The notes under the pieces: generated by a model
The model's input: only the letters and a program-made list of their open reading frames with translations
Databases searched by the model: none
What the model was told of the DNA's origin: nothing
Position numbers and translations under genes: made by a program
Shown: positions 40,488 through 49,300 of the stretch, piece by piece
Numbering within the stretch: position 1 is the first letter of the stretch
How the letters are laid out: each line of letters begins with the position of its first letter
Assembly: GCF_003730275.1 (NCBI RefSeq)
Contig: NZ_QTTA01000016.1
Coordinates: 62,001 to 126,000, forward strand
Direction of reading: 5' to 3'
DNA length: 64,000 bases
Origin: Brevundimonas halotolerans
GTDB taxonomy: Bacteria; Pseudomonadota; Alphaproteobacteria; Caulobacterales; Caulobacteraceae

Positions 40488-40763
40488 TCAGATCTCGCCG
40501 AGGGCGGACAGATAGAGGTCGAGGATGGCCTCTTCCTCCTGGCGCTTGGCCTTGTCCTGTTTGCGGATGCGCAGCACCTTGCGCAGCACCTTCACGTCAT
40601 AGCCCTCGCCCTTGGCTTCGGCGAAGACCTCCTTCATGTCACCCATGACGGCCTGCTTGTCCTCTTCCAGCCGCTCCAGCCGCTCGATCAGGGTGCGCAG
40701 GCGCCCCTGGGCGGTCGAGGTCAGCACATCGGGGCTGGATTCAAAGGCGGCGTCATCGGCCAT
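40488..40763 (-). CDS. gapR: Nucleoid-associated protein GapR (DUF2312)
   Basis: In Caulobacter, GapR binds overtwisted AT-rich DNA ahead of replication forks and highly expressed genes and helps topoisomerases. The 91-aa protein has the family's 'STAQGRLRTLIERLERLEEDKQAVMGDMKEVFAEAKGEGYDVKVLRKVLRIRKQDKAKRQEEEAILDLYLSALGEI', an antiparallel helical dimer that encircles DNA. It is transcribed downstream of rpmJ but after a terminator, so it probably has its own promoter in the 75-bp gap. A basic ORF follows directly. Confidence 0.94.
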   Translation of the reverse strand: MADDAAFESSPDVLTSTAQGRLRTLIERLERLEEDKQAVMGDMKEVFAEAKGEGYDVKVLRKVLRIRKQDKAKRQEEEAILDLYLSALGEI

Positions 40764-40838
40764 GGGGGTCTCCGAAGGCAGGGGCGGGTCAGGCGACAGG
40801 CTTAACGGCTGGGCCGGGATGGCTCAACGTCAGGCACG

Positions 40839-40866
40839 AAAAAGGCCGCGGACATCGCCCGCGACC
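40839..40866 (-). terminator. Rho-independent terminator of rpmJ
   Basis: On the minus strand GGTCGCGG-GCGATGT-CCGCGGCC forms an 8-bp stem (one G-U pair) followed by five T. It lies about 50 bp past the rpmJ stop. Confidence 0.8.
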
Positions 40867-40914
40867 TGTGGATGGATCAACCGGCCACAGACGTGGCCAG
40901 CCAAACCGCCGTGC

Positions 40915-41040
40915 CTAGCCTTGCTTGGCTTTGAAGCGCGGGTCGGTCTTGTTGATCACATAGACCACGCCCTTGCGGCGAACGATCTTGCAGTCGCGGT
41001 GGCGACCCTTGAGCGACTTGAGAGAGCTGCGGACCTTCAT
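40915..41040 (-). CDS. rpmJ: 50S ribosomal protein L36 (zinc-free type)
   Basis: The 41-aa protein '[20 protein letters not shown]' continues '[21 protein letters not shown]', the longer alphaproteobacterial L36. The CxxC...CxxxxH zinc ribbon of the classic form is absent; a single cysteine remains, so it is the zinc-independent (C-minus) type. It has its own strong promoter, a leader hairpin and a terminator, so it is monocistronic. Confidence 0.96.
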
Positions 41041-41071
41041 GGTCTTTCGTCCTGCGGGCTGATCAGAATAC

Positions 41072-41098
41072 AAAAAGCCGCAAGACCGGACTTGCGGC
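41072..41098 (-). promoter_or_regulatory. Terminator-like hairpin in rpmJ leader
   Basis: On the minus strand GCCGCAAG-TCCGGT-CTTGCGGC is a perfect 8-bp stem followed by TTTTTG. It ends 31 nt before the rpmJ ATG and begins only a few bases after the predicted transcription start, with no gene upstream on this strand. It could be an attenuator or a 5' stability hairpin. Confidence 0.7.
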
Positions 41099-41107
41099 GG
41101 AGCGGTG

Positions 41108-41136
41108 CCTATAAAGAGGGGCGGCGCGGACGTCAA
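41108..41136 (-). promoter_or_regulatory. Housekeeping promoter of rpmJ
   Basis: The minus strand carries TTGACG (41136-41131), a 17-bp spacer and TATAGG (41113-41108), close to consensus for the major sigma factor. Transcription should start near 41101. Confidence 0.78.
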
Positions 41137-41302: not shown

Positions 41303-42586
41303 ATGCGTATTTCTACCCGCCTCATCCTGATCGGTACCGTCGCGGCCTGCGCCCCCATGCTGCCCGAACCGCCGCTGCCGTTGCTGCCGCAGCCGGAGAC
41401 GTCCCAGCCGACGACCCCGACGACGCCGCCGCCGTCCACCACGCCCCCGACGACCGATGCTGCGCCGGACCAGGCCGGGTTCGACGGCTGGAAACAGGGC
41501 TTCCTCGACCGTCACGGCGGCGCCCGCCGGGCCGAGTACGAGCGTGAACTGGCCGGGCTGGGCCCCGATCCCACCGTCATCCGGCTGGACGGCAACCAAC
41601 CGGAATTCTCGCGCCCTGCCGGCGCCTATGTCCAGAATGCCGTGACTCCCGGCCGAATCGCCCAGGCGAAGCAGTTGTCGGACCGCGTGCCGTGGGCCGT
41701 CGTCCAGCGCTTTGGCGTGCCGACCGAAATCCTGCTGGCCATCTGGGCCCAGGAAAGCGCCTTTGGTCAGGTGCAGGGCGATTTCGACGTGATCCGCTCG
41801 CTGGCCACCCTCGCCTATGACGGTCGCCGCCGTGACTGGGCCGAGGGCCAGCTCAAGAATGCGCTCGACATCGTCATCGACGGTCGCCGCGCCCGCTCGG
41901 GCCTGAAAGGCAGCTGGGCCGGAGCCATGGGCCAGACCCAGTTCATGCCGGACAACTATCTGCGCCTCGGCATCGATCAGGACGGCGATGGTCGTGTCGA
42001 CATCTGGGGTTCGGACGCCGACGCCCTGGCCTCGGCCGCCAATCTGCTGGATCAGGCGGGATGGAAGCGCGGCCAGACCTGGGGCTATGAGGTCATCCTG
42101 CCCGACAATTTCGACTATGGCCTGGCCGAAGGGCCGCGCCATGACTGGGCCTTCTGGAGTGCGCGTGGCGTGCGTCTGGCCCAAGGCGGCATGCCGAACG
42201 ACGCGGAACAGGCCGAGGGTGCGACCATCCTGCTGCCGCAAGGTGCGCGCGGCCCGGCCTTCCTCGCCCTGCCGAACCACTATGTGATCCGCCGCTACAA
42301 CAACTCGGTTTCCTATGCGCTGGCGATCGGCCTGACCGCCGACGGCATCCAGGGCAAGCCGGGCCTGACCCGCACATGGCCAGACGACGCCCCCCTGTCG
42401 CGTGACCAGCGAATCGGCACCCAGCGGGCGCTGACCAGCATGGGCTATGACACCCAGGGCATCGACGGGATCATCGGCGCCAACACCCGCGCTGCCCTTC
42501 GGCAGTGGCAGATCGACACCGGGCGGCTGGCCGACGGCTATCTGACCGCCGAGCTGGCCGATGAACTGATCCGCATGGCGCGATGA
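41303..42586 (+). CDS. Lytic murein transglycosylase (MltB family) lipoprotein with peptidoglycan-binding domain
   Basis: The 427-aa protein has a lipoprotein signal ('RLILIGTVAAC'), a Pro/Thr linker and an SLT/MltB-type catalytic domain. The catalytic Glu lies in 'EILLAIWAQESAFG', with 'GSWAGAMGQTQFMPDNYLRLGIDQDGDGRVDIW' following. A C-terminal PG-binding domain reads 'RALTSMGYDTQGIDGIIGANTRAALRQWQ'. It cleaves peptidoglycan to 1,6-anhydro products at the outer membrane. The start at ATG 41303 puts the signal at the N-terminus; the longer frame from 41105 overlaps the rpmJ promoter. Confidence 0.93.
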   Translation: MRISTRLILIGTVAACAPMLPEPPLPLLPQPETSQPTTPTTPPPSTTPPTTDAAPDQAGFDGWKQGFLDRHGGARRAEYERELAGLGPDPTVIRLDGNQPEFSRPAGAYVQNAVTPGRIAQAKQLSDRVPWAVVQRFGVPTEILLAIWAQESAFGQVQGDFDVIRSLATLAYDGRRRDWAEGQLKNALDIVIDGRRARSGLKGSWAGAMGQTQFMPDNYLRLGIDQDGDGRVDIWGSDADALASAANLLDQAGWKRGQTWGYEVILPDNFDYGLAEGPRHDWAFWSARGVRLAQGGMPNDAEQAEGATILLPQGARGPAFLALPNHYVIRRYNNSVSYALAIGLTADGIQGKPGLTRTWPDDAPLSRDQRIGTQRALTSMGYDTQGIDGIIGANTRAALRQWQIDTGRLADGYLTAELADELIRMAR

Positions 42587-49078: not shown

Positions 49079-49300
49079 GGTCGCGGCTGCGCACAGGGAA
49101 GACGGGCTCTCGCGGGAGAGATCGGGGTCATGGTTCTGACCCCGGAGCCGAAGGCGCAACCGCCCCGGAAACGCTCAGGCAAAAGGACCGCGAGGCGCAT
49201 CAGACGCTGGAAAGAGCCAGGCATGGCTCGCCGACGGAGCAAGGCGAATTTGTTCGCTGGAATCTCTCAGGCTTCGAGACAGCGGGGGCTTTACGGGGCG
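49079..49300 (+). promoter_or_regulatory. Tandem glycine riboswitch upstream of gcvT
   Basis: Two consecutive glycine aptamers are recognisable. The first (about 49101-49200) has GGGAGAG, 'GCCGAAGGCGCAACCGCCCC', then GGAAACGCTCAGGCAAAAGG. The second (about 49203-49292) has GCTGGAAAGAGCC, 'GCCGACGGAGCAAGGCGAA' and GGAATCTCTCAGGC. The conserved GCCGAAGG/GCCGACGGAGCAA and CTCAGGCAAAAGGAC cores are exact. Such elements turn on glycine-cleavage genes when glycine is abundant. Confidence 0.96.

Follow-up and report, generated by a model that had tools for sequence, protein, structure and literature searches.

The general kind of element with which this study is concerned, a bare terminator or a hairpin at the 5’ end of a leader, is already known. 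The closest described system is the rimP-leader, in which a short conserved GC-rich hairpin and a U run precede a ribosome-related gene with no visible antiterminator, and which is weaker than a regular terminator (PMC2965389), as regulatory terminators generally are according to section 7 of that source. The rpmJ leader of the Brevundimonas genome described here shares these traits, in that a conserved stem is followed by a U run without an antiterminator and appears likewise weaker than regular terminators, and the resemblance is one in kind only. Its motif is GCCGC/GCGGC, whereas that of the rimP-leader is GGGc/gCCC, and it stands before another gene. Moreover, the rimP-leader of B. subtilis lies inside a 180-nt leader, and its known distribution includes Firmicutes and Gammaproteobacteria among others (PMC2965389), whereas the inferred start lies about 3 nt ahead of the rpmJ hairpin, and the element was found in one genus.

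A further precedent is given by 5’ stem-loops, which are able to stabilise mRNA (PMC7509114). In the ompA-type stabilisers (Emory et al. 1992, cited in PMC7509114) the hairpin likewise lies a few bases from the 5’ end, and by its inferred start the rpmJ transcript would carry about 3 unpaired nt before the stem-loop; the rpmJ hairpin differs from this type by the terminator-like U run directly after its stem. Finally, rpmJ resembles the ribosomal-protein leaders (PMC7247131; Rfam) in having a structured 5’ leader before a ribosomal protein gene, but its apex is variable and, short of a systematic search, no rRNA-like site was identified in it. The term L36 is absent from the main text of PMC7247131, and the available parts of the literature on rpmJ leaders, L36 and Caulobacter rpmJ yielded no description of this element. 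Control of L36 has been little described altogether, and according to a 2024 review it is still unclear how secY and rpmJ of the E. coli spc operon are regulated (PMC10931766).

Genomic setting of rpmJ

The window, which is the whole 64-kb stretch of DNA that was analysed, carries rpmJ in the following setting:

40915..41040, minus strand: rpmJ, type B ribosomal protein L36, 41 aa (NF002021, 89.5 bits)
40488-40763, minus strand: gapR, downstream of rpmJ (NF052541), a gene indicative of the Caulobacterales
40833..40867, minus strand: intrinsic terminator after rpmJ, including a 10-nt tail, used as comparator for the leader hairpin
41303-42586, plus strand: MltB-type lytic transglycosylase gene, upstream of and divergent from rpmJ

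No L36 match other than this rpmJ was obtained in the 2.54-Mb genome, and its product contains one cysteine. Type B L36 is zinc-independent. With a single match, of type B, a zinc-controlled pair of L36 paralogues (a zinc-binding and a zinc-free copy) was rejected, and the single gene copy and lone cysteine lend no support to the zinc-sensing attenuator that had been suggested at the outset.

The closest upstream ORF on the minus strand that we judged to be a gene (44774-43806, presumably ispH) lies past the plus-strand mltB-like and lspA genes, and the long minus-strand ORF 42280-41246 inside the mltB-like gene is one that we take to be a putative antisense ORF. The preliminary description’s remark that no upstream gene on the same strand requires a terminator therefore looks right, since by eye no likely minus-strand gene is present within 2.7 kb; for the same reason, the leader hairpin was rejected as the terminator of an upstream gene. 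It was also rejected as a terminator for the plus strand, where the stem is followed by GGAGCGGTG and no T run.

The rpmJ promoter

Upstream of rpmJ the following elements are found:

41131..41136, minus strand: -35 element TTGACG, by direct reading
41108..41113, minus strand: -10 element TATAGG, at a spacing of 17 and without T at its last position
41099..41107, minus strand: GC-rich discriminator and inferred start region CACCGCTCC, conserved in the genus, with the start at about 41101

The sequence TTGACG-N17-TATAGG on the minus strand (41136-41108) had been noted earlier as a strong promoter; its coordinates hold, the promoter is kept within the genus, and the spacing from its -10 element would place the start of rpmJ transcription near 41101. 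For comparison, 81 genomes were sampled from the genus, 77 of which carried rpmJ, and four same-genus genomes from an order-wide search brought the set of same-genus leaders to 81. TTGAC occurs in 81/81 of these, TATA in 80/81 and a spacing of 17 in 79/81, while outside the genus TTGAC is found in 32/32 leaders and TATA in 25/32; these counts are biased upward, as sites were chosen by best consensus match, and the printed same-genus sequences nonetheless line up. The promoter spacer is mostly variable within the genus.

The rpmJ promoter is absent from the output of our consensus scan because the rule applied demands the final T of the -10 hexamer. This calls for caution in annotation, as an E. 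coli-type promoter rule misses it. In Caulobacter crescentus and two further Alphaproteobacteria, more than 60% of the mapped -10 elements are without this T, and CarD has been proposed to compensate for it (PMC8407463). With its TATAGG, the rpmJ promoter is like the Alphaproteobacterial sigma-70 promoters without T at -7 that are proposed CarD/CdnL targets (TATACG/TATAGG before a housekeeping gene; PMC8407463), and no difference in sequence sets it apart from them; dependence on CdnL is putative here.

The pattern TTGAC-N18/19-TATA has six matches in the 2.54-Mb genome, compared to two for a reversed control pattern. Four of the six sit before ribosomal protein genes, namely rpmJ and three genes that we take, from their translations, to be rpmB, rpsT and rpmH. 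At the inferred start, all four of these loci (L114-L117) have in common a GC-rich stretch that ends in a pyrimidine run (CTC/TCC).

A conserved hairpin at the predicted 5’ end

Shortly after the inferred start lie two further elements:

41077..41098, minus strand: 5’ hairpin with a perfect 8-bp stem GCCGCAAG/CTTGCGGC and a 6-nt loop TCCGGT, -13.8 kcal/mol
41065..41076, minus strand: U-rich tract TTTTTGTATTCT abutting the stem

The consensus scan listed this hairpin with eight pairs, six of which are G-C. T5 (41076-41072) follows the stem immediately, after which 31 nt remain to the rpmJ ATG at 41040, and the earlier reading of a perfect 8-bp stem plus T5 only a few bases past the predicted start was thereby confirmed. 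Throughout the genus, the best 5’-proximal hairpin starts 8-11 nt past the -10 hexamer (81/81 leaders, -9.3 to -20.8 kcal/mol). With the start deduced from spacing, the RNA ahead of the stem would amount to about 3 nt in the own genome and 2-5 nt across the genus.

Absence of sequence conservation in the stem had been named as grounds for giving up the idea of a functional leader; instead, the same stem base, GCCGC/GCCGT paired with CGGC/TGGC, is present in 77/81 leaders (36 distinct hairpins), the exceptions being L009, L010, L011 and L055. Among the 36 distinct hairpins, stem pairs 1-3 are invariant and the apex varies, with A-U, G-C, C-G and G-U types all occurring at pairs 6-8. Terminator-like hairpins per se are common, with four in 6 kb compared to 3.7 +/- 2.3 in shuffles, and the folding stability of the whole rpmJ leader is ordinary (z -1.28; 20/200 shuffles as stable). 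The rpmJ leader hairpin is unusual in its place and conservation, not in its mere occurrence.

Beyond the genus, none of 32 leaders, taken from further genera and families, has the hairpin in the same form, and several of them are 35-40 nt long and nearly or wholly unstructured. In a neighbouring genus (L034-L041, L047, L049, L052, L100) rpmJ is preceded by another, imperfect hairpin, GGA-GUUC...GAAC-UCU, with a variable inner stem and without a U run. Searching the own genome with leader model R1, in which 150 of 5589 first-look candidates were scored, gave the rpmJ leader as the sole strong match (58.7 bits), the next-best among those scored reaching 16.2 bits (E 0.6). At the gathering threshold, Rfam matched only four tRNAs and a glycine riboswitch in the 64-kb window and no ribosomal-protein leader family; at a lax threshold, the leaders of six loci matched no leader family either, the 11 sub-threshold matches lying mostly elsewhere in the loci. 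The glycine riboswitch aptamer is located at 49103-49200 of the window on the plus strand (65.3 bits, gathering threshold). The leader observation is real and conserved in one genus, and its mechanism is uncertain.

The U tract and an inserted repeat

In 68/81 same-genus leaders at least four of the first five nucleotides after the stem are U, and in 80/81 at least three; 13/81 thus have fewer than four. Slightly further downstream, nucleotides 4-15 after the stem contain 4-9 U in 81/81 leaders, in loci with a T content of 16%. The tail follows a genus-wide pattern UUUU-Y-U-R-UUU: among 49 distinct hairpin-tail combinations, U is found at positions 1-4 in 80-94% and at positions 8-9 in 94-96%, while at position 7 a purine occurs in 78% and C is absent. 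U8-U10 are conserved to the same degree as U1-U4, which, together with the purine at position 7, exceeds what a terminator needs and counts against a reading based on termination.

Ten of the 81 leaders (L006, L016, L027, L028, L029, L068, L070, L077, L084 and L098) harbour a palindromic repeat, inserted between the U tract and the rpmJ start codon. The hairpin is kept in 10/10 of these, and the abutting U run in 9/10 (L098 has CATTT). As both persist despite the insertion, the 5’ module need not adjoin the ribosome site, and if it works, it would act away from that site in the repeat-bearing leaders. The repeat itself, GCGCT-AAGC...TAGCGC, is dispersed, with 17-66 matches per genome in eleven genomes and 22 in the own genome when up to two mismatches were allowed (reversed controls gave 0-2 matches).

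Terminator strength and covariation

The combination of a GC-rich stem (8 bp) and an immediate U run (U5) is that of an intrinsic terminator. Using a score of the d’Aubenton Carafa type, 76/81 same-genus leaders scored positive as compared to 6/400 random stretches under the same scan geometry, where the scored hairpin is the best one starting near the 5’ end, which in L003 differs from the conserved stem. Leaders without a positive score were L009, L010, L011, L097 and L098 (5/81). In the own genome the leader hairpin scored 37.4 and the 3’ terminator of rpmJ 42.5. Across the genus, the best score in the stretch after rpmJ was positive in 81/81 with a mean of 43, compared to a mean of 20 for the leaders, a difference that is favoured by taking the 3’ score as the best over a longer stretch. 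From its sequence, the rpmJ leader element is terminator-shaped and weaker than a regular terminator.

Conservation of the stem with compensatory changes had also been named as a check. The first part of this stands, the stem base being kept in 77/81 leaders, whereas covariation is weak. When 3’ halves were exchanged among the 36 distinct rpmJ hairpins and total energies compared, only 1/5000 permutations were as stable; this rose to 263/5000 without the long-stem clade, and to 851/5000 when a second clade was left out too. Pair counting on the MAFFT alignment of the rpmJ leaders (A1) gave 84.6% paired cells for the named structure versus 38-55% for slid versions, and only 6/500 shuffles had as many cells changed on both sides. 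The covariation score of this alignment was not above that of shuffles (253/500 as high), and one slid version scored higher. RNAalifold predicted no consensus structure for A1, nor any structure for the alignment of rpsT leaders discussed below (A3), probably because the apical stems vary in length and are misaligned by MAFFT. For the apex, a shuffle test of stability was ordinary (1/35 distinct apices below 0.05, mean 0.32; 8/81 leaders did not fit the pattern). The stem base thus appears conserved by sequence, and the support from compensatory changes is modest and derives mostly from one clade.

Possible roles of the leader

So what might this leader do? The reading that we tentatively prefer, with a confidence somewhat short of even, is that of a bare promoter-proximal partial terminator of which the hairpin stays behind as an end shield on read-through mRNA. 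Transcription of rpmJ would be initiated from the housekeeping promoter at about 41101, and RNA polymerase would produce the hairpin and the U tract within the first ~30 nt. Some polymerases may then pause or stop at the U tract, resulting in a tiny RNA of ~30-35 nt, while the remaining ones would read through and yield an rpmJ message that keeps the hairpin about 3 bases from its 5’ end, where it could slow down 5’-end-dependent decay. The terminator would be a bare one, either fixed or tuned by a factor, with no competing antiterminator. We favour termination because conservation of the stem base goes together with that of the U run abutting it, and partial termination with end protection is what we infer for the rpmJ leader; the element may also combine termination with a post-transcriptional role. 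If true, a terminator placed about 3 bases past the transcription start of a gene for a ribosomal protein would offer a simple and testable example of how promoter-proximal termination can do without an antiterminator.

A purely post-transcriptional role, in which the hairpin would shield the 5’ end and the U-rich strand would let the ribosome dock or stand by (S1 protein) without significant termination, ranks close behind as a serious candidate of somewhat lesser probability, since the U run has been lost from some leaders that retain a hairpin. Some hairpin is present in 81/81 leaders, the U enrichment at nucleotides 4-15 is equally universal, U8-U10 are as well conserved as U1-U4, and the neighbouring genus manages with its different, imperfect hairpin and no U run. 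On the other hand, a near-invariant stem base with a U run abutting it in 68/81 leaders would be superfluous for a shield, in the own genome the score of the hairpin falls little short of that of the 3’ terminator, and the repeat that separates the U tract from the ribosome site in 10/81 leaders weakens the docking part. It is also conceivable, if quite improbable, that the element is functionless, and that a GC-rich hairpin and T run next to a strong promoter were simply retained through a short divergence time. That such hairpins are as common in 6 kb as expected, that this one was not seen in the 32 leaders outside the genus, that covariation is weak and that the apex is no stabler than shuffles would all fit this; conversely, conservation in the genus covers the U tract and the two arms of the stem base, while the apex between these arms and most of the promoter spacer vary. 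As for regulation, a classical attenuator with an antiterminator is not supported: with the stem starting 8-11 nt past the -10 hexamer in 81/81 leaders there is no upstream RNA to compete, and from the 2-5 nt of inferred RNA before the stem no antiterminator could form before the decision. This led us to reject antiterminator-type attenuators and riboswitches. A bare attenuator governed by a factor or by rate, or a 5’ stabiliser, may apply. A genus-specific regulated attenuator at the extreme 5’ end, where a bare terminator would decide the outcome before the transcript exceeds 35 nt, we hold to be unlikely; the decision would be set by a factor bound to RNA polymerase, or else by a ribosomal protein (L36 or a different one) that acts on the invariant stem base and UUUU-Y-U-R-UUU, so that the output of rpmJ would keep pace with ribosome demand and an RNA of ~30 nt would be released.

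A last alternative involves the ribosome site itself:

41049..41057, minus strand: Shine-Dalgarno region CCGCAGGAC (AGGA 41053-41050)

The loop and 3’ arm of the hairpin, GUCUUGCGG (41086-41078), are complementary to this region (41057-41049) over 9 bp with one G-U. They could therefore take part in a two-state translational switch, which we regard as very unlikely: pairing with the 5’ arm would leave the ribosome site accessible, and pairing with the Shine-Dalgarno region would close it. In the own genome the two states are near-equal (-19.8 vs -18.4 kcal/mol, a difference of 1.4), and in 33 distinct short leaders own partners beat permuted ones (0/5000 as low), a result to which shared ancestry may contribute. 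In 26/53 distinct leaders most of the Shine-Dalgarno bases are predicted to pair, with any partner. The pairing beats 95% of shuffles of the ribosome-site segment in 8/54 distinct leaders and 95% of loop shuffles in 12/54, yet the mean shuffle ranks over these 54 are 0.385 (ribosome-site segment) and 0.364 (loop); moreover, one clade is without the pairing, which is absent from L066, L067, L074, L083 and L085, with ranks of 0.84-0.93. Sequestration of the rpmJ Shine-Dalgarno sequence was rejected on the ground that the pairing, present in the own genome, is not conserved across the genus, and we treat it as probably lineage-limited or due to chance.

The leader of rpsT

Among the genes that share the promoter pattern, rpsT (S20) has in the own genome (L116 / L120, C20 36345-36708) a leader consisting of the promoter, a strong 10-bp GC-rich hairpin and a U run. 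The gene is present in 60/61 genomes of the genus and 40/40 of the family, of which 30 genus and 28 family loci were examined (2/28 of the latter belonging to the same genus). A leader before rpsT has been listed for Deltaproteobacteria, with the ligand printed as L20 (PMC7247131). At a lax threshold no Rfam family matched the own-genome leader L116. The idea that outer arms form a helix which closes the ribosome site was not supported, as permutations were as stable in 5000/5000 cases, and in 4829/5000 outside the genus.

The hairpin itself lies at the same place in most predicted folds, as judged by eye. None of 2000 arm permutations were as stable for 46 distinct cores, nor for the 26 distinct leaders outside the genus, where the arms thus covary, and 57/2000 were so within the genus (20 cores). 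By these predictions the structured leader of rpsT is better supported than that of rpmJ, and it possibly represents an S20 leader of the Caulobacterales.
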